Source: Glycomyces lechevalierae
GTDB lineage: Bacteria > Actinomycetota > Actinomycetes > Mycobacteriales > Micromonosporaceae
Length of the DNA: 64,000 nucleotides
Reading direction: 5' to 3'
Assembly: GCF_027622945.1 (NCBI RefSeq)
Contig: NZ_JAPZVQ010000001.1
Coordinates: 225,183 to 289,182, forward strand
Part shown: positions 4,948 through 49,894 of the stretch, one piece after another
Layout: every line of letters starts with the position of its first letter
Numbering within the stretch: the stretch's first letter is position 1
Made by a program: the position numbers and the translations under genes
The notes under the pieces: generated by a model
Database searches by the model: none
What the model saw: the letters and a program-made list of their open reading frames with translations, nothing else
What the model was told of the DNA's origin: nothing

Positions 4948-6471
4948 TCAGACTTTCGCGGCAGGCTCCATGGTTCCGTCGACGCGGCGCTGGAGGCTGA
5001 GCGGGTTGTCGTCGTGGAGCGCCTCGGGCAGCAGCGGTTCCGGAGTGGACTGGTAGGCCACCGGGCGCATGAAGCGCGCGATCGCGCCCGTGCCGACCGA
5101 GGTGTGCCGGCCGTTCGTGGTCGCGGGCCACGGGCCGCCGTGGTGCTGCGCGTCGGTCACGGCCACGCCGGTCGGCCAGCCGTTCACGATGACGCGACCC
5201 GACCGCTCCGCCAGCAGCGGGAGCGCGGCCCGGGCGACCGGGTCCGCCGACGTCGCGAGCTGGACCGTCGCGGTGAGACCGCCCGGGAGCTGCGGCAGCA
5301 CCCGTTCGAGCTCGGCGATGTCGGTGTAAGTGAGCACCAGCGCGGTCGGGCCGAAGCACTCGTGAAGGAGAGCGTCGTCGCCGTCGATCGCAGCAACGGG
5401 GGCCGCGATGAGGCCCGGTGTCACCGCGAAGCCCTCGTCGACTGACGAGGGTTCGACCGCGAAGCACGCCTGCGGGTGCGACGCCAGCCGGGCCGCCTCC
5501 GCCGTATAAGCCTCGCGGATGCGGGCGTTCAGCATCGGGTGGACCGCCTTGGTGCGCACGGCAGCCGCCAGCGCGTCGTCGAGTCCGTGGTCTTCGGGAA
5601 GGAAAAGCAATCCGGGTTTGGTGCAGAACTGGCCGGCGCCGAGAGTCATCGACGCCGCGAACTCCTCGACCAGGCCGGGGCCGCGCTGCGCGACGGCTTC
5701 GGGGGTGACGACCACGGGATTGAGGCTGCCGAGCTCGCCATAGAACGGGATGGGTTCGGGCCGAGCTGCGGCCTCTTCGGCGAGCGCGCGGCCGCCCGCG
5801 ATCGAACCGGTGAAGGCTGCGGCCTTGATGTTCGGGTCGCGGATCAGGTCGAGTCCGGCTTGGAAGCCGCTGACGACGGCGAACACTCGCGGGTCGGCGC
5901 CGTGCTTCTCGAGGGCTTCGGTGATGATCTCGGCGAGCAGGACCGCCGTGGCGGGTTGCGAGGCATGGGCTTTCGCGACGACCGGGCAGCCTGCGGCCAG
6001 CGCGGCGGCGGTGTCGGTGCCGGCGACGCCGAAGGCGAGCGGGAAGTTCGAGGCCGCGTAGACGGCGATGGGGCCGAGCGGGATGTTGCAGCGGCGCAGG
6101 TCGGGCCGGGGCGGTGTGGCGCGCGGGGCGGCGTGGTCGATCACGACGTCGAGGGCCGCGCCGGTCTCGGCGTAGGCGGCGTACTGATCGAACTGGCCGG
6201 TGGTGCGGGCGAGTTCGCCGCGGAGGCGGGTCTCGCCGAGGCCGGATTCGGCGTCGGCGAGGGCGACGAGGGCGTCCTCGTGGTCGGTCAGGGCGGTGGC
6301 GATGGCGCGCATGAGGTTGCCGCGTTCGGTCGGGCGCATGGCGGCGAGGCCTGGTGCGGCGGCGCGGGCGGCGGCCGCGATGCGGGCGACCTCGTCGGGC
6401 GCGGTCTCGGCGATCGGTTCGCCGAACGCCGCTCCGGTGGTCGGGTTGACGCTGCGCAGTGTGTCGGCCAT
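4948..6471 (-). CDS. 2-oxoglutaric semialdehyde dehydrogenase (NADP+), ALDH family
   Basis: A 507-residue aldehyde dehydrogenase of the alpha-ketoglutaric semialdehyde type. The catalytic Cys283 is in GQFCTKPG and the general base Glu246 in FYGELGSLNP. SNFPLAFG and FTGS mark the Rossmann cofactor region. In hydroxyproline, arabinose and glucarate pathways this enzyme performs the last step, oxidising 2-oxoglutarate semialdehyde to 2-oxoglutarate. The divergent neighbours, a DapA-family lyase and a proline-racemase-family epimerase, favour the hydroxyproline route. The ATG at 6471 has only a weak purine-rich site upstream. Family placement is secure; the pathway is inferred from context. Confidence 0.88.
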   Translation of the reverse strand: MADTLRSVNPTTGAAFGEPIAETAPDEVARIAAAARAAAPGLAAMRPTERGNLMRAIATALTDHEDALVALADAESGLGETRLRGELARTTGQFDQYAAYAETGAALDVVIDHAAPRATPPRPDLRRCNIPLGPIAVYAASNFPLAFGVAGTDTAAALAAGCPVVAKAHASQPATAVLLAEIITEALEKHGADPRVFAVVSGFQAGLDLIRDPNIKAAAFTGSIAGGRALAEEAAARPEPIPFYGELGSLNPVVVTPEAVAQRGPGLVEEFAASMTLGAGQFCTKPGLLFLPEDHGLDDALAAAVRTKAVHPMLNARIREAYTAEAARLASHPQACFAVEPSSVDEGFAVTPGLIAAPVAAIDGDDALLHECFGPTALVLTYTDIAELERVLPQLPGGLTATVQLATSADPVARAALPLLAERSGRVIVNGWPTGVAVTDAQHHGGPWPATTNGRHTSVGTGAIARFMRPVAYQSTPEPLLPEALHDDNPLSLQRRVDGTMEPAAKV

Positions 6472-42711: not shown

Positions 42712-45282
42712 CTAGAGGCTCCAGACCTCGACTTCGCCCAAGGTGGCGCCGGTGACGACGACCTGGTGGCCGTCGATCTCGGTCACCTCGACGGCGGTGA
42801 TCGCGTCGTCGGTGGTGTGCTCGGCGAAGCTCTCGCCGATCTGCGCGCCGGTCGCGAGGTCGAACAGGCTCAGGCCCTTGTCGCCGGAGGCGAGGACTAC
42901 GGCCTTGCCGTCGATCTCGATCACGCGGAGGGCGTTCACGGTCTGGTAGAGCTCCTGCGCGGGCTGGCCGTACGGTTCGGCGGTCGCGAGGTCCCAGGCC
43001 TGGATGGTGCCTTCGCCGGTGACGGTGACCGCGAGGCTCTTCCCGGCGGCCTGGCCCGCCGCGAGCGCCAGGATGTCGTAGGCGAGCTGGTCGAACGTGC
43101 CGCCCACGGGCTCGCCGGTGGCCAGGTCGGTCACCACGACGCGGTTCTCGTAGTAGGTGACAGCGCGGAGGGTGCCGCCCACGTCCGCGAGCTGCAGGCC
43201 CTCGCCGTAGGAGGTCGAGATGTCCGTGATGACGTTGCCGGTGAACAACTGCTTGACCTCGTAGTCCGTGGCGTAGGCGGGCGTGCCGTCCCACAGGCCG
43301 TACCAGTAGATCGAGTCGTACAGCGAGTCGCGGTCGGCGACGGGCGTGCCCGGGTCGTCGAGGTACCAGGTGTCGTCGGTGGTGCCGTCGCTGGAGAAGA
43401 CCGCCACGCGTCCACCGGATTCGGTGACGACGCCGAGGCTCGTGATCGGGCCCTCGTGGCCGCGGTAGTCGTCGATGAGCTTGCCGTCCGCGGGGTCCCA
43501 GATGCGGACGATCGCGTCCTCGCCGCCGGTGAGCACGACGTTCGCGCCGTCGAGCTGGGCGACCTCGACCTGCGTGATCGCCCCGACGTGCTGGGAGGCC
43601 ATCGTGGCGACCAGGTCGCCTTGGACGGCTTCGGCGAGCGGCACGGGGCCGTCCTCGTCGCCGGTCCCGGCCGAGCCGTCCGTGTCGTCCTCAGTGGCCT
43701 CGGCGCCCGCCTCGGTCGCGTCGTCGCTCTGCGTGGTCCCCGATGCGTCGCTCGGATTGTCGTTGTCGCGTCCGGCGAGCACCGTCGGGAGCATGACGAC
43801 GGCGGCAATGGCGATCACGACGACGGCCGCGGCGGCCGAGAGGACGAGGACGCCCTGCTTCGACTTGATCCACGGGCCGCTCTGGGGCGCGACGGGTCCC
43901 GTCGGGTACGGGCCGGGCGGCGGCGAGGGGGCCAGGTGCGGCTGGGTGTACGGCTGGGGCGGGACGCCCGGCATGGCCTGCGGAGTCGGCTGCGAGGCCG
44001 TCGGATGCACCGGCGGCTGCGAGGTCGTCGGATGCGCCGTCGGCTGCGAGGCCATCGGGGGCGCCGAAGGATGCGGGAGCCGCATCGTCTGGCCGGTCGG
44101 GGCGCTCACCGGACTCGGCACGGGCGCGACGACCGGGGTCGCGGTCTGCGGCGGCAGGGCCGGGCTGGGGACCGAGATCGGGGTGCTGATCGTGTGCTGG
44201 GCGACGAGCCCGCCCTCGGAGACGGCGAGTTCGGGCTGCTCGATCGCCGAGGGGGCGATGCCGAGCTCGCGGTGCAGGAGAGTGGCGACGAGCGGCATGC
44301 GGCTCGCCGCGCCGACGAGGAAGAGCCCGGCGATCTGCTCCTTCGCGAGCCCCGATTCGCGGATCACGCCCTGCGTGACGCGGATGGTGCGCTCGACGAG
44401 CGGCGTGCACACCTGCTCCAGCTCCTCGCGCGTGAGATGGACGTCCACGTCGAGGAGCGGGATGGTGAGTTCCGTCGAGGCGCTGCGGGAGAGCCGCTCC
44501 TTGGCCTGGCGGACCTCGTCGATGAAGGCGGTGCGGTGGCGCAGGCCGGCCTGCTCGGTCGGGTTCGTCAGCCGCGCCCAGCGCTCGGCTGCGTCGCTCA
44601 TGCCGGCCGGATGCACGGTCGCGGCGAGGTGCTCGGCGAGCGCCTGGTCGAAGTCGAGGCCGCCCAGGTCGTCCGCGCCGTCGACGGCGAGCACGTCGAA
44701 GCCGGTCGTGGCGCGGCGCAGCACGGTCGCGTCGAAGGTGCCGCCGCCGAGGTCGTAGACGACGACGCCGCTGCCCGGCGCCACGTTCGCGCCGAGGGTC
44801 TCCACGAAGTAGCTCGCGGCCGCGACGGGCTCGGCCACGAGGTCCACAGTGCCCAGTCCGGCGGCGGTGGCGGCGTCCGCGACGACGTGGCGGCGGGTCG
44901 GGCCCCAAGCGGCCGGCACGGTCACGGTGACCGGGCCGAGCGTGCCGAGGGTCTGCTCGCATTCGCGGGCCACGCGGGAGAGGACGGCGGCGATGACGCT
45001 GGTGACGGGGATCTCGGTCTCGCCGAGGAGGATCTGGGCGTCGTCGATGCGCCGCTTCGGGTTCGGCTCGTACCGGTCGGGCTTGCGCCGTCCCGAGTGG
45101 ACGGCGTCGGCGCCGACGACCGGACCGCCCTCGTCGTTCATGAACACCGCGGAGGGCAGCTGCGGGGAGCCGTCGAACAACTGCTGGTGCACGCGACCGT
45201 CGGCCCGGCGGATGGTCGCGACGGTATGGGAGGTGCCGAAGTCGACGCTGATCGAGGCGGGTCGGGGGTTGGAGAAGGACAT
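42712..45282 (-). CDS. Membrane-anchored Hsp70-like ATPase with extracellular beta-propeller
   Basis: An 856-residue protein with an unusual layout. Residues 1-365 are a DnaK-type actin-fold ATPase: ISVDFGTSHTVATI (phosphate 1), VVYDLGGGTFDATVLRR (phosphate 2) and LFLVGAASRMPLV (adenosine motif). No substrate-binding domain follows. Instead there is a Pro/Ser/Gln-rich spacer (about 366-470), one membrane helix (about 477-503) and an acidic stalk. Residues 550-856 contain repeated blade-like units such as VVLTGGEDAIVRIWDPADG and GKAVVLASGDKGLSLFDLATG, a WD40/quinoprotein-like propeller facing outside. The ATPase would be cytosolic. TACAGT seven bases before the ATG suggests a leaderless mRNA. 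It is divergent from a sensor kinase gene. Confidence 0.85.
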   Translation of the reverse strand: MSFSNPRPASISVDFGTSHTVATIRRADGRVHQQLFDGSPQLPSAVFMNDEGGPVVGADAVHSGRRKPDRYEPNPKRRIDDAQILLGETEIPVTSVIAAVLSRVARECEQTLGTLGPVTVTVPAAWGPTRRHVVADAATAAGLGTVDLVAEPVAAASYFVETLGANVAPGSGVVVYDLGGGTFDATVLRRATTGFDVLAVDGADDLGGLDFDQALAEHLAATVHPAGMSDAAERWARLTNPTEQAGLRHRTAFIDEVRQAKERLSRSASTELTIPLLDVDVHLTREELEQVCTPLVERTIRVTQGVIRESGLAKEQIAGLFLVGAASRMPLVATLLHRELGIAPSAIEQPELAVSEGGLVAQHTISTPISVPSPALPPQTATPVVAPVPSPVSAPTGQTMRLPHPSAPPMASQPTAHPTTSQPPVHPTASQPTPQAMPGVPPQPYTQPHLAPSPPPGPYPTGPVAPQSGPWIKSKQGVLVLSAAAAVVVIAIAAVVMLPTVLAGRDNDNPSDASGTTQSDDATEAGAEATEDDTDGSAGTGDEDGPVPLAEAVQGDLVATMASQHVGAITQVEVAQLDGANVVLTGGEDAIVRIWDPADGKLIDDYRGHEGPITSLGVVTESGGRVAVFSSDGTTDDTWYLDDPGTPVADRDSLYDSIYWYGLWDGTPAYATDYEVKQLFTGNVITDISTSYGEGLQLADVGGTLRAVTYYENRVVVTDLATGEPVGGTFDQLAYDILALAAGQAAGKSLAVTVTGEGTIQAWDLATAEPYGQPAQELYQTVNALRVIEIDGKAVVLASGDKGLSLFDLATGAQIGESFAEHTTDDAITAVEVTEIDGHQVVVTGATLGEVEVWSL

Positions 45283-45381
45283 GCCCGCAACTGTAGTGAC
45301 CTGGGTCCAGCGGCGGTTGTGGAGGGAACTCCCGTTCCGCGCGGGGCCGTGTGCTTCGCACGCGCCTGGGAGAATGCGCGG

Positions 45382-46521
45382 GTGGGTTTGCAGACGCAGT
45401 TGCGGCGGGCGATCGCGGTGTTCCGGTTCGCCGCTCTGGGCTATCCGGTGCTCCTGGGCGCCTTGGCGTTCGACGACCTCGCGCACCCGGTCGCGGCACC
45501 CGTGCTGGTGCTCGCGCTCGTGGCCTGGACGGCCGCCGTCAGCTACCGGTACACCCGCAAGGGGTACGAGGACCTGGTCGTCCACGCCGACCTCGCCGTG
45601 ACCGCGCTGGCCGTCGCGGCCTCGGCGTGGGCGCTGGCCGTGGACGGACGGGCGGTGCCGATCTCGTTGGGGCCGTGGCTCGCCGGGGTCGTGCTCGCGT
45701 GGGGCGCGGCGTGGGGCCGCCGCAGCGGGGCCGTCGCCGGCGGCGTCATCGCCGTGTTCGGCATGGTGTTCCGGGGCGGCATCAGCGAGAACACCGTGAA
45801 CGAGGCGGCGCTGCTGGTGCTCACCGGGTTCACCGTCGGGCACCTGGTGCGGCTCGGGGTGCAGGCCGAGGAGCGGACGCGGCGGGCGACCGAGCGCACC
45901 GCCGCCGCGAGGGAACGCGAGCGGCTGGCCCGCGACATCCACGACTCCGTGCTGCAGGTGCTGGCGCTGGTCCAGCGGCGCGGCAACGAGATCGGCGGTG
46001 AGGCGGCCGAACTCGGGCGGCTCGCCGGACGCCAGGAGGAGGCGCTGCGGGCGCTCATCTCCTCCGAGGCGTACCGGCACCCCCTCGACGGGCGGCGAGA
46101 CCTGCGCGAACTGGTCGGACGGCACGCGGGCGAGGCCGTGACCGTGGCGGCCCCGGCGACCCCGGTGCGGCTGCCCGCCGCGACGGCCCGCGAGGTCGCG
46201 GCGGCGGTGGCGAGCGCGGTCGACAATGTGCGCGAGCACTGCCCGGACGGGACGCGCGTGTGGCTGCTCGTCGAGGACGACGAGCAGGCCGTGACGGTGA
46301 GCGTGCGCGACGACGGGCCCGGCATCGCACCGGGCCGGTTGGCCGAGGCCGCCGCCGAGGGGCGTCTCGGTGTGGCGCAGTCGATCGAGGGCCGCGTGCG
46401 CGAACTCGGCGGGGCCGTCACCGTCGTGTCCGGACCGGGCATCGGCACGGAGATCGAGATGCGGGTGCCGCGTCCGAGAACGGAAGGGGACGCCGATGGC
46501 GACGCTCATTGTGGTCGATGA
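45382..46521 (+). CDS. Sensor histidine kinase (HisKA_3, NarL-system type)
   Basis: A 379-residue membrane kinase. Five or so hydrophobic helices fill residues 10-160 with no large extracellular domain. A coiled linker leads to RERERLARDIHDSVLQVLALV with the phospho-acceptor His187. The ATP-binding domain has DNVREHCPDGT (N box), DDGPGIA (G1) and GPGIGTEIE (G2). GAGAAT six bases upstream of the GTG points to a leaderless message. The 3' end overlaps the response regulator gene by 26 bases, so the two are one operon. The signal is unknown; the divergent Hsp70-propeller gene 99 bp away is a likely partner or target. Confidence 0.9.
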   Translation: MGLQTQLRRAIAVFRFAALGYPVLLGALAFDDLAHPVAAPVLVLALVAWTAAVSYRYTRKGYEDLVVHADLAVTALAVAASAWALAVDGRAVPISLGPWLAGVVLAWGAAWGRRSGAVAGGVIAVFGMVFRGGISENTVNEAALLVLTGFTVGHLVRLGVQAEERTRRATERTAAARERERLARDIHDSVLQVLALVQRRGNEIGGEAAELGRLAGRQEEALRALISSEAYRHPLDGRRDLRELVGRHAGEAVTVAAPATPVRLPAATAREVAAAVASAVDNVREHCPDGTRVWLLVEDDEQAVTVSVRDDGPGIAPGRLAEAAAEGRLGVAQSIEGRVRELGGAVTVVSGPGIGTEIEMRVPRPRTEGDADGDAHCGR

Positions 46522-47131
46522 CCACCCGATCTGGCGCGAGGCGATCGCCCGCGACCTGACCGCCGCCGGGCACCGCGTGCTCGCCGTCCTCGGCGACGGC
46601 AAGGCCGCGCTCACCGCGATCCGCGGGCTCCGGCCCGACGTGGCAATCCTTGACCTCCAGCTCCCGGACCTCTCGGGTGTCACCGTGCTGCAGGCGCTCG
46701 GCGAGGACTGCCCGACGGCCGCGCTCATCCTCTCGGCCAGCGGCGAATCGTCCGATGTGCTCGAAGCGATGAAGGCCGGGGCGCGCGGCTACCTCGTCAA
46801 GTCCGCTTCGGCGGCGGAACTCGCGGACGCCGTCGAACGGGTCGCGGCCGGGGACGCCGTGTTCACGCCGGGCCTGGCCGGGCTCGTGCTCGGCGAGTAC
46901 CGGCGGCTCGCCAACGCCGACGTCGAGGAGCGGCCGAAGCTCTCCGAGCGCGAGACCGAGGTGCTGCGGCTCGTCGCGAAAGGATTGAGCTACCGCGAGA
47001 TCGCCGAACGACTGGTGCTCTCGCAGCGGACCGTCCAGAACCACGTGCAGCACATCCTCACCAAACTCCAGCTCCACAACCGGACCCAGCTCGTGCGGTA
47101 CGCGATCGAACAGGGCATCGACGGCGACTGA
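46496..47131 (+). CDS. NarL/FixJ-family response regulator
   Basis: A 211-residue response regulator. The receiver domain has the acidic pair in VVDDHP, the phospho-acceptor Asp53 in AILDLQLPD and Lys in YLVKSAS. The C-terminal LuxR-type helix-turn-helix is LSERETEVLRLVAKGLSYRE with IAERLVLSQRTVQNHVQHIL. It is the cognate partner of the overlapping kinase gene. AAGGGGA precedes the ATG. Targets are unknown; adjacent genes on both sides are the first to test. Confidence 0.93.
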   Translation: MATLIVVDDHPIWREAIARDLTAAGHRVLAVLGDGKAALTAIRGLRPDVAILDLQLPDLSGVTVLQALGEDCPTAALILSASGESSDVLEAMKAGARGYLVKSASAAELADAVERVAAGDAVFTPGLAGLVLGEYRRLANADVEERPKLSERETEVLRLVAKGLSYREIAERLVLSQRTVQNHVQHILTKLQLHNRTQLVRYAIEQGIDGD

Positions 47132-47217: not shown

Positions 47218-49071
47218 ATGAACGCCTACATCACCGCCGCCGGCGCGTACCTCCCCGGTCCCCCGGTCGGCAACGACGAGATCGCGGCGCGCCTCGGCGG
47301 GGTCGACGAACGCGGCGACCGGCTGCGCCGCCGCATCCTGGCCGCCAACGGGATCGCCAAGCGCCACTACGCCATGGACGCGCACGGCAACACCACCGAG
47401 CTGAACGAGGAGCTGGCCGCCAACGCCCTTCACGCCGCCCTCGACGAACGCGGCCTCGGCGCCGCCGACCTCGACATGCTCGCCACCGCCACCACCCAGG
47501 GCGACCTGCTCGTGCCCGGCTTCGGGTCGATGGTCCACGGCCGCTTGGGAGGCGGGCCGATGCAGGTGCTCTCCGCCGCCGGCGTGTGCGCCTCCAGCCT
47601 CGCCGCCCTCGATGCGGCCGTGGCGAAAGTACGCCTGGGCGACCGGCGCCGCGCGGCCGTCGTCGGCAGCGAGCTCTCCAGCCGATGGCTGCGCGGCACA
47701 CGGTTCACGGGAGGCGGCGACGCCGACGCGCACTTCCTGCGCTGGATGCTCTCCGACGGCGCCGGGGCGGTCCTGGTGGAGGCGCAGCCGCGCCCCGACC
47801 GGCCCTCGCTGCGCGTCGACTGGGTCCGCACCGTCTCGCTCGCCCACGCCCACGAGGTGTGCATGCGCGCCGGCATGGGCGAAGGCCCCTCCCCCGCCGC
47901 CGGGCGCACCTGGCAGGACATGGGCAGCGCTTCCGCCGCCGAACAGGCCGGGATGATGCTGCTGCGCCAGGACACGAGCGCGCTCGGCGCCCTCGCCGAG
48001 GCCGGGCTGCGCGAGTTCCAGTCGCTCGCCCGCGAGGGCCTCATCGACCTCGGCAAACTCGACCACGTGCTGTGCCACTACTCGACGAACGCCTTCCGCG
48101 ACATCGTCTTCGATCAGCTCGCCTCCGCCGGGGCGCAGATCGACACGGACCGCTGGTTCTCCAACCTCGAGACGCGCGGCAACACCGGCGCGGCCTCGAT
48201 CTTCATCGCCCTGGAGGAATGCTGGCGCACCGGCCGGTTCGAACCCGGCCAGACCATCCTGCTCGCCGTGCCCGAATCGGGCCGGTTCACCTTCGGGTTC
48301 GCCCATCTGACCTGTGTGGACGCCGCAGCGGAGACCCCTGCCGCGGCGGCAGTCCCGACGATGCGAGCGGCGACTGCCGTCGTCACCCGTGTCGCACCAC
48401 GGTCGGACAGCGCTTCGGAGAGCGTCCACGACCGCCTCGCCGCCGTGTGGCAGGAGTTCGAGCAGCGGCTCGACCAGGTGCCCGTCATGCACCGCCTCGG
48501 CGAGGGCACCGCCACCATCGAGGACTACCGGCGGCTCCTGTTCAACCTCCGCCAGCAGGTCGCCGACGGCGCCCGCTGGATCTCCCGCGCCGCCTCCAAC
48601 TTCTCCGTCGACCTGTTCGACCTGCGCAGCGCCGCCATCGGCCACGCCGCCGAAGAGCACCGCGACTTCATGATGATCGAACGCGACTACGCCGCCTGCG
48701 GCGGCTCCATCGAGGACATCCGCTCCGGCGAGAAGAACATCGGCTCGGAAGCGTTGTCCGCGTACATGTTCCACACCGCAAGCCAGCCCGACCCGATCGG
48801 GCTCCTCGGCGCCATGTTCATCATCGAAGGCCTCGGCACCGGCAAGGCCTCCGAATGGGCCGCCCGCTTCAAGGAGACCCTGCGGCTGCGCGACGACCAG
48901 GTCAGCTTCCTCGCCTACCACGGCGAAGCCGACGACGACCACTTCGCGAAACTCCAGGCCATCCTCGACTCGCCGCGCGTCGACGCCGCGGCCGCCGACG
49001 CCATCGTCAAGACCGCCAAGGTCGTCGCCCGCCTCTACGCCCTCCAACTGGAAGAACTCGACCATGTCTAA
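47218..49071 (+). CDS. Fusion of ketoacyl synthase III-like and heme-oxygenase-like (HDO) domains
   Basis: A 617-residue protein. Residues 1-370 are a beta-ketoacyl-ACP synthase III-like thiolase fold with Cys124 in AAGVCASS, His287 in LCHYSTNAF and Asn322 in RGNTGAAS, so the condensing triad looks complete. After a linker, residues 400-617 form an all-helical heme-oxygenase-like domain of the iron-containing redox enzyme type, with IGHAAEEHRDF, FIIEGLGTG and HGEADDDHF providing possible metal ligands. The pairing suggests formation of an acyl product that is then oxidatively modified. ATG at 47218 matches the usual start of synthases, though GGAGG lies too close to it; an ATG at 47182 is the alternative. 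The stop overlaps the next gene. Confidence 0.82.
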   Translation: MNAYITAAGAYLPGPPVGNDEIAARLGGVDERGDRLRRRILAANGIAKRHYAMDAHGNTTELNEELAANALHAALDERGLGAADLDMLATATTQGDLLVPGFGSMVHGRLGGGPMQVLSAAGVCASSLAALDAAVAKVRLGDRRRAAVVGSELSSRWLRGTRFTGGGDADAHFLRWMLSDGAGAVLVEAQPRPDRPSLRVDWVRTVSLAHAHEVCMRAGMGEGPSPAAGRTWQDMGSASAAEQAGMMLLRQDTSALGALAEAGLREFQSLAREGLIDLGKLDHVLCHYSTNAFRDIVFDQLASAGAQIDTDRWFSNLETRGNTGAASIFIALEECWRTGRFEPGQTILLAVPESGRFTFGFAHLTCVDAAAETPAAAAVPTMRAATAVVTRVAPRSDSASESVHDRLAAVWQEFEQRLDQVPVMHRLGEGTATIEDYRRLLFNLRQQVADGARWISRAASNFSVDLFDLRSAAIGHAAEEHRDFMMIERDYAACGGSIEDIRSGEKNIGSEALSAYMFHTASQPDPIGLLGAMFIIEGLGTGKASEWAARFKETLRLRDDQVSFLAYHGEADDDHFAKLQAILDSPRVDAAAADAIVKTAKVVARLYALQLEELDHV

Positions 49072-49894
49072 GCCGGCCGGCGGGCCGCTCGCCGACCCGC
49101 CCATGTGGGACGCGATGATCGCCGACCCCGCCATGCCCCTCGAACCCGAGGTCGCCAGCATGGTCACCGACGACCAGCGGCGATGGACCCGCACTTGGAT
49201 CTACCCGGTTCTGCGGCCCGTCTCGCGCGTGCTCGCCCTCGTCATCGTCGCCCTCAAGCGCCTCACTCCGGTGCGCTGGACCGCCCACCGGCTGATGGAC
49301 CGCCTCTGCCTGTGGTTCCTGCGCCGCTTCGTCTCCCCGCTCGCCGTCGAACTGCTCATCCGCCACTTCGTGATCGAGACCAACCTGCTCAACTTCATCG
49401 TCCGCAACACCGCCACCGGCATCGAGCCGGTGGCGCTGCGGCCGGTGAACCTCGCCGGGCTCGGCGACCGGGCCGTCATCGAGCACGACATCAACGTCTA
49501 CGAAGTGCTCGCCGCCCTCGACATGACGCCCGCCCGGCCGCTCGCCGAGTTGGACTTCGAGGGGCTCGATATGCCGCCGCTCGACCCCGAACCCCACCGG
49601 TTCCGGCTCATGCGGCTCGACATCCAGACCGCGCTGTGCCTGATGAACCTGCCGTTCGCCGCGTGCCTGACCCCCGACGAGTACCGGCGGGCCGTGCACT
49701 CCATGCGCTTCGACGACTCGATCCTCGCGATCCTGGCCGACCTCACCGGCGACCCGACGTTCCTGCGCTGGCAGAACGGCGACCTCTCGATCCGCGCGGA
49801 CTCCAACACCGACGTCCCGCACGCGGTGTACCGGCACGCCGTGGTGTGCGAGTACGCGCACGCGCACCTTGCCAGACTCGCGAAACGAATGTGA
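49064..49894 (+). CDS. Uncharacterised protein coupled to the synthase fusion
   Basis: A 276-residue protein I cannot place in a named family. It has an amphipathic to hydrophobic stretch at about 45-66 (VLRPVSRVLALVIVALKRL) that could attach it to the membrane, and a second hydrophobic patch near 95-115 (FVSPLAVELLIRHFVIETNL). The rest is soluble and rich in conserved-looking acidic, His and Arg residues (VIEHDINVYEVL, RLDIQTALCLMNLPF, QNGDLSIRADSNTDVPHAVY). Its ATG overlaps the stop of the fusion gene by eight bases, so the two products are made together and probably act in one pathway. Confidence 0.8.
   Translation: MSKPAGGPLADPPMWDAMIADPAMPLEPEVASMVTDDQRRWTRTWIYPVLRPVSRVLALVIVALKRLTPVRWTAHRLMDRLCLWFLRRFVSPLAVELLIRHFVIETNLLNFIVRNTATGIEPVALRPVNLAGLGDRAVIEHDINVYEVLAALDMTPARPLAELDFEGLDMPPLDPEPHRFRLMRLDIQTALCLMNLPFAACLTPDEYRRAVHSMRFDDSILAILADLTGDPTFLRWQNGDLSIRADSNTDVPHAVYRHAVVCEYAHAHLARLAKRM

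Follow-up and report, generated by a model that had tools for sequence, protein, structure and literature searches.

A module of ketosynthase, heme-oxygenase-like oxidase and DUF6999, the first two fused in Glycomyces, that probably makes an uncharacterised lipid

Results

The window analysed here is a stretch of 64,000 nucleotides from Glycomyces lechevalierae (contig NZ_JAPZVQ010000001.1), and our subject is a pair of plus-strand open reading frames (ORFs) in it that overlap by 8 bp. The first (47218..49071, 617 aa) encodes a fused protein that joins a ketosynthase (KS) to an oxidase of the heme-oxygenase-like diiron oxidase (HDO) superfamily, and the second (49064..49894, 276 aa) encodes a member of the Pfam family DUF6999. 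An earlier note on this DNA, made from the letters alone, had described both ORFs correctly and had proposed a candidate new pathway, in which a ketosynthase III fused to a heme-oxygenase-like oxidase is coupled to a partner without a nameable function. We find that a KS of the StlD/DarB type, as judged by sequence and model, an HDO-type oxidase and DUF6999 constitute a strict module, which probably makes an uncharacterised lipid. In the open-licence literature we found no description of the module, of its change in an HDO ligand or of the DUF6999 fold, and the proposal of a new pathway is upheld to that extent.

Searches with the DUF6999 model covered 396 genomes of the window's phylum, 398 of Pseudomonadota and 194 of the archaeal phylum to which locus L102 belongs, and identified 4, 9 and 11 carriers, respectively. 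A KS and an HDO adjoin DUF6999 in all 24 (4/4, 9/9 and 11/11), a set that includes at least four genomes already known as carriers (G000, which is the window's own, G572, G579 and G580). Thus, the coupling that had been noticed at a single locus is strict. Near relatives hold 20 further DUF6999 matches, and the four loci checked among them all carry KS and HDO (4/4).

Loci drawn through the HDO instead, namely the best 80 of 408 relatives ranked by likeness to a Pseudoalteromonas HDO, carry a KS in 80/80 and DUF6999 in 79/80, with L071 ending at a contig edge. Clustering of neighbours by six-frame ORFs gave mostly antisense shadows, and neighbours were read directly from the loci. They include a gene designated 'up', which encodes a His-rich membrane protein of 185-200 aa and is present in 78 of the 80 loci (L087 and L092 start at contig ends). 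In 76/80, the four genes keep the order up-KS-HDO-DUF6999 on a single strand; in L095, DUF6999 lies on the opposite side. Among these loci, the cassette extends over Gammaproteobacteria, Myxococcota, Melainabacteria and Poseidoniales archaea, with Halomonas, Billgrantia, Shewanella, Colwellia, Reinekea, Myxococcales, Obscuribacterales/Melainabacteria, Poseidoniales and others as carriers. The same four genes lie on the Pseudoalteromonas THAF3 plasmid, annotated as a ketosynthase, an iron-containing redox enzyme and two hypothetical proteins, and the KS and HDO trees place the same lineages together. One contig labelled Actinobacteria (L121) also has the four-gene cassette. In both trees it clusters with rows of the Melainabacteria type, which may reflect a wrong label or a transfer.

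Pfam (ACP_syn_III_C, 5e-11; ACP_syn_III, 5e-6), NCBIfam and PDB sequence searches concur in assigning residues 1-367 of the fused protein (47218..48318) to the ketosynthase. Its Cys-His-Asn triad, already read as intact in the earlier note, is formed by Cys124 (47587-47589), His287 (48076-48078) and Asn322 (48181-48183) and is invariant in 58/58 KS rows of alignment A7, a chosen subset of 90 rows. Compared with the AlphaFold2 model of the fused protein (mean per-residue confidence, pLDDT, 91.1; predicted TM-score, pTM, 0.66), the closest solved structure is StlD (5gk2; Z 50.2, root-mean-square deviation 1.8, 362 aa aligned, 36% identity), with PqsD, FabH and OleA at Z about 37-38. A phmmer search gave 9.6e-64 for StlD versus 8.4e-18 for the best non-StlD KS, and the top NCBIfam model is the StlD/DarB family NF005293 (5.9e-97; 325.1 bits, under its curated cut-off of 450). 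Because StlD is far closer by both fold Z and phmmer, we rejected a generic ketoacyl-acyl carrier protein (ACP) synthase III (KAS III, FabH) identity. By sequence and predicted fold, the KS is nearest to the StlD/DarB (cyclohexanedione) type, a point that the earlier note had missed. The likeness to Photorhabdus StlD and to DarB comprises the fold, the triad, about 36% identity across the domain and common blocks such as FLRWMLSDGAGA; in contrast to them, the KS of the module falls under the family cut-offs and comes with an HDO, by fusion or as a neighbour, and with DUF6999, and the window has no ACP gene.

A further StlD-like ketosynthase was seen in a cluster on the linear plasmid of Streptomyces sp. 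NBC_00008 (L043, 7712-17119), alongside two ACPs, an FAD monooxygenase, FabF, a P450, FabG and an F420 oxidoreductase, with neither HDO nor DUF6999 in that stretch. The stand-alone KS of locus L035 clusters with it in the tree.

A linker (48319..48423), with residues 380-398 predicted to be disordered (pLDDT <50), leads to the HDO domain (residues 403-617; 48424..49068), which is modelled as all-helical. The oxidase that had been placed in this half is confirmed by Pfam Haem_oxygenas_2 (PF14518), which matches the fused chain at 7.5e-10 and 39.3 bits against a cut-off of 28.9, the sole match to this family in the genome. Since the KS filled the fold-match list of the fused model, membership of the HDO superfamily is assigned here from Pfam and sequence profiles. 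A profile of 11 KS-linked HDOs, holding no KS-less HDO, matched only the heme-oxygenase-like structure 3dde (1.6e-8) in the PDB up to E = 1; a broader 33-row profile, which includes one Vibrio HDO without a KS, matched 3dde (1.3e-17) and the acetylenase MboA (0.0075), and its only other match, to a prolyl hydroxylase (0.56), is no better than chance. UndA and BesC, to which the earlier note had likened the domain, are absent from the PDB matches of both profiles, and no direct comparison with either was made. What remains of that likeness is an HDO-type domain with most ligands kept, for which UndA and BesC serve as analogies only.

An excerpt of PMC13185094 gives the metal ligands of MboA as Glu86, His89, Glu143, His172, Asp176 and His181. 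Mapped by alignment, with the numbering of the MboA PDB chain offset by 25 as counted on that alignment, they correspond to the putative ligands Glu480, Asp483, Glu537, His568, Asp572 and His575 of the fused protein, and the 11-row profile gives the same register against 3dde. All six are invariant in the 59 HDO rows of A7, including His568, which had been proposed for mutation. Five of the six canonical ligands are thus kept and, by sequence, the metal site does not lack most of them, but the position of MboA His89 is Asp483 in 59/59 rows, and the set of three His and three carboxylates typical of most HDOs is not matched. His476, four residues before Glu480, is likewise invariant (59/59) and occupies the position of MboA Tyr82, a proposed base, and a carboxylate stands at position 450 (Glu in 51/59 rows; Asp, as in the window, in 8/59). 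In summary, the domain resembles UndA, BesC, AetD, MboA and SznF in its Haem_oxygenas_2 score above cut-off, its alignment to MboA and 3dde and its five kept ligands, and it differs in this Asp, in the His at the place of MboA Tyr82 and in its strict pairing with a KS.

A different HDO pathway was noticed on Vibrio parahaemolyticus plasmid pLH214-1 (L044, 5931-9465), where an operon encodes a 'thermostable hemolysin', an AMP-binding protein, an HDO with the canonical E-x-x-H ligand pair and an SDR oxidoreductase, with no ketosynthase beside the HDO. Similar matches on other Vibrio and Pseudoalteromonas plasmids are annotated 'iron-containing redox enzyme' or 'AMP-binding'.

The 276-aa partner is a full-length member of DUF6999 (PF22523; 5.9e-84, 281.8 bits against a gathering cut-off of 27, residues 10-272), a Pfam family without assigned function whose link to KS and HDO is established in the present analysis. 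Its model is helical and confident (pLDDT 91.5, pTM 0.89), and Foldseek returned no match to solved structures at E <= 0.001. The HDOs PolF, AetD and SznF fill much of its Foldseek list, none significantly, and VIA-align gave a best Z of 3.1 with no HDO among 12 rows. Of the residues invariant in a 73-row alignment (Arg43, Arg100, His101, Asn115, His141, Asp142, Asp186, Leu202, Asp217, His258 and Glu263), the polar ones suggest that DUF6999 is an enzyme. The earlier idea that it may be membrane-attached is weak and is not borne out by hydropathy, whose 19-residue maximum is 1.82 and which exceeds 1.6 at one position only.

Fusion of the KS to the HDO is one of two arrangements of the module. 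Among 150 genomes of the window's family, 134 have some match to the fused protein, mostly weak and confined to the KS, and 35, including the window's own, match strongly over most of both domains: 31 as single near-full matches, G043 with one long piece and one short, and three as two pieces. DUF6999 follows the long match in 31/31 loci, the window's included. On the strength of these two counts, we rejected a chance fusion or an assembly error. Fused KS-HDO was found in 0/80 of the HDO-drawn loci; fusion is not required for the module. The count of fused and split forms that the earlier note had advised gave fusions in the window's family and in Pseudomonadota, and none among the loci drawn by HDO.

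In a second actinobacterial family, the KS and the HDO are encoded by separate genes in 3/3 loci (L158-L160), with the HDO start overlapping the KS stop as ATGA in L158. In the HDO tree, these split forms fall within the fused ones, in a group (support 100/97) with the window's genus and a single sister genus. A single clade of all fused forms was not rejected in the first HDO tree or in the KS tree (approximately unbiased test, p-AU 0.40 in each); after the addition of L158-L160 it is disfavoured in the HDO tree (p-AU 0.032), and one clade of the actinobacterial fusions alone is not rejected in this enlarged tree (p-AU 0.184). Because split forms nest inside fused forms in the HDO tree, the state has probably changed more than once, by both fusion and separation or by repeated fusion, with long branches (L142 and the Pseudomonadota fusions) limiting how far this history can be traced. 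The existence of both forms fits two enzymes that act in sequence, without proving channelling. At L158, the gene before the split KS (5123-6025) resembles, by eye, that of a siderophore-interacting FAD protein, which might supply the HDO with electrons or iron.

To find acyl desaturases within 300 bp of the cassette, four desaturases served as BLAST queries; Pfam confirms three of the four as FA_desaturase. A desaturase gene adjoins the cassette in 22/25 archaeal loci, four as fragments at contig ends; the exceptions are L094, which ends inside DUF6999, L096, which ends about 0.5 kb past it, and L090, which has no desaturase. Others adjoin the cassette in L089, L095, L116 and 6/8 fetched loci of Pseudomonadota; in the latter, the KS is also fused to the HDO and 'up' was not found in the piece examined. 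The archaeal and Pseudomonadota desaturases mostly belong to one subfamily (about 36-48% identity). The presence of desaturases beside the cassette in several lineages points to acyl lipids. The 'up' protein has no Pfam match above cut-off and contains invariant Asp, Cys, His and Glu positions. A second type of desaturase, marked by GYHRLLSHRSF-like or ITYHRMLAHRAF-like motifs and taken here to be delta-9-like, replaces the HNHTH-type near the cassette in a small number of loci from archaea, myxobacteria and cyanobacteria/melainabacteria (L089 7440-8246, L106, L116 11516-12313 and L117-L119).

Upstream of the fused gene and on its strand lie a histidine kinase (DUF5931, HisKA_3 and HATPase_c by Pfam; 45355..46521, where 45355 marks only the edge of the piece analysed) and, overlapping it, a LuxR-type response regulator (Response_reg and GerE; 46496..47131) that ends 86 bp before the fused gene. 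The pair lies upstream on the same strand in 12/19 actinobacterial loci with flanks and was not matched in the other 7/19 within the sequence piece examined, nor was it found in the pieces examined of the split loci L158-L160. The regulator is at most 180 bp from the KS start in 10/12 of these loci, and about 1.3 kb and 2.6 kb away in L036 and L026, respectively. Of the conserved neighbours, the earlier note had recognised the 276-aa partner and missed the kinase/regulator pair, the desaturases and 'up', as well as the archaeal reach of the module. It was right that no carrier protein is nearby: the PP-binding domain PF00550 has no match in the window, and its two matches in the genome lie on another contig and about 142 kb before the window. 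We therefore rejected a secondary-metabolite cluster with its own carrier protein for this window. Farther upstream, on the minus strand, 42712-45282 encodes an 856-aa protein in which an Hsp70-like domain and a WD40-like repeat end can be recognised by eye.

Discussion

The KS and the HDO each belong to a known superfamily, and the chemistry that we favour for them resembles that of dialkylresorcinol (DAR) biosynthesis. Our preferred reading, to which we give a probability of roughly 40%, takes the locus to be the actinobacterial version of an acyl-lipid pathway that is widespread and uncharacterised, in which the KS would form a dione, the HDO would convert it to a resorcinol and DUF6999 would perform a further step. 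An excerpt of PMC5515871, citing Fuchs 2013, describes the DarB products as 4-carboxy-2,5-dialkylcyclohexane-1,3-diones, and in an excerpt of PMC3949708 the annotation DAR-aromatase belongs to a separate protein, DarA. By analogy with DarB, the KS would condense two acyl thioesters, carried by CoA or by the ACP of primary metabolism, into a carboxylated cyclohexanedione or a beta-keto acid. The substrates described for the HDOs UndA, SznF, AetD and MboA are a fatty acid, amino acids or a peptide, and the substrate provides a ligand to the iron in UndA, AetD, HrmI, PolF and MboA, in the last through its C-terminal carboxylate (PMC13185094, PMC13108848). The free carboxylate of the KS product could coordinate the HDO metal site in the same manner. 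O2-dependent C-H abstraction and loss of CO2 would then produce a ring alkene whose tautomer is a 2,5-dialkylresorcinol, so that the HDO would remove CO2 and two hydrogens from the carboxy-dione in one O2-dependent step.

The HDO would thereby do the job of the DarA/StlC aromatase, with the same net chemistry performed by an O2/metal enzyme instead, a parallel drawn from the chemistry. In the dar gene cluster, DarA stands beside DarB with an ACP; the window has no ACP (PF00550). DUF6999, with its invariant Arg, His, Asp and Glu, may carry out a further obligatory step or hand the product on, and the fusion may serve to hold an unstable beta-keto acid near the oxidase. The end product would be a dialkylresorcinol-like or enone lipid.

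Several observations weigh against this reading. The KS stays below the cut-off of NF005293 and also below that of the DarB-specific model NF053539 (286.9 bits versus 550), and in the KS tree the module KSs form one side of a branch with moderate support only (81/87). The canonical His three residues after Glu480 is replaced by Asp in every HDO row, and the chemistry may therefore differ from that of UndA. An adjacent desaturase was found by BLAST in 0/46 gammaproteobacterial loci, and a linked desaturase had no match in 9/10 actinobacterial genomes, the window's included; the tenth, G009, gave a weak match (3e-6, 29% identity), and of two Pseudomonadota in the same search G806 had none and G665, the genome of the query itself, had one. 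Moreover, 'up' was found with profile A3 in 0/26 actinobacterial genomes that carry the module; as a control, A3 recovered its target in 12/12 genomes, two of them without any row in A3. As 'up' was not found in these actinobacteria, nor the linked desaturase in the window's genome, the substrate there may differ. Finally, our literature search found no product for any module member.

The best-surviving alternative, which we consider rather unlikely, is a linear route. Here the KS would perform a Claisen condensation, either head-to-head as in OleA or chain-extending, and the HDO would oxidatively decarboxylate or desaturate the resulting linear beta-keto acid to a long-chain enone, an alkene or a hydrocarbon. 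OleA structures also fit the KS well (Z about 37), UndA is described in an excerpt of PMC13108848 as a fatty acid decarboxylase, and the desaturases beside the cassette in several lineages suit such a route. The KS is, however, clearly nearer to StlD than to OleA (Z 50 versus 37; 36% versus 20% identity). The Pfam scan of neighbours, comprising 20 proteins with the module members included, is too small to exclude ole-type partners.

A second alternative, less probable still, is that the module makes or modifies an acyl-derived cofactor or membrane lipid. The HDO would then hydroxylate or desaturate an acyl chain, the KS would work on another intermediate, and the fusion would be mainly a scaffold. 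In many lineages the set includes an FA_desaturase and the His-rich membrane protein, the fused or split state is labile, and the set is present in archaea, whose own membrane lipids are isoprenoid. Against this, neither active site varies among the aligned rows, whatever the lineage, which makes a pure scaffold role unlikely for either half. That the HDO half is no dimetal oxidase, its invariant Asp483 making it a mononuclear or self-modifying, CADD-like protein, seems improbable: an excerpt of PMC13108848 does describe mononuclear iron HDO variants, which arise by losing two helix alpha-3 ligands, but here Glu480, Glu537, His568, Asp572 and His575 are invariant, Asp can bind metal, and the position-450 carboxylate and His476 are possible further ligands.

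On a broader reading, we consider it a little short of an even bet that the widely spread module of bacteria and Poseidoniales makes a new class of lipid, with a Claisen/cyclising KS, a new HDO subclass with a site of the two-His, four-carboxylate type that aromatises or oxidatively decarboxylates the KS product while being unrelated to DarA, and a DUF6999 enzyme with a fold unseen among solved structures. The module suggests that the aromatase known from dialkylresorcinol biosynthesis may have an O2-dependent counterpart, and the invariant His-to-Asp swap would widen the known metal chemistry of the HDO superfamily. In addition, DUF6999 gains a genomic context, and the natural fusion of a condensing enzyme to an HDO can be tested with two genes. 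Since the module is conserved from actinobacteria to marine archaea, it should make something important to the cell.

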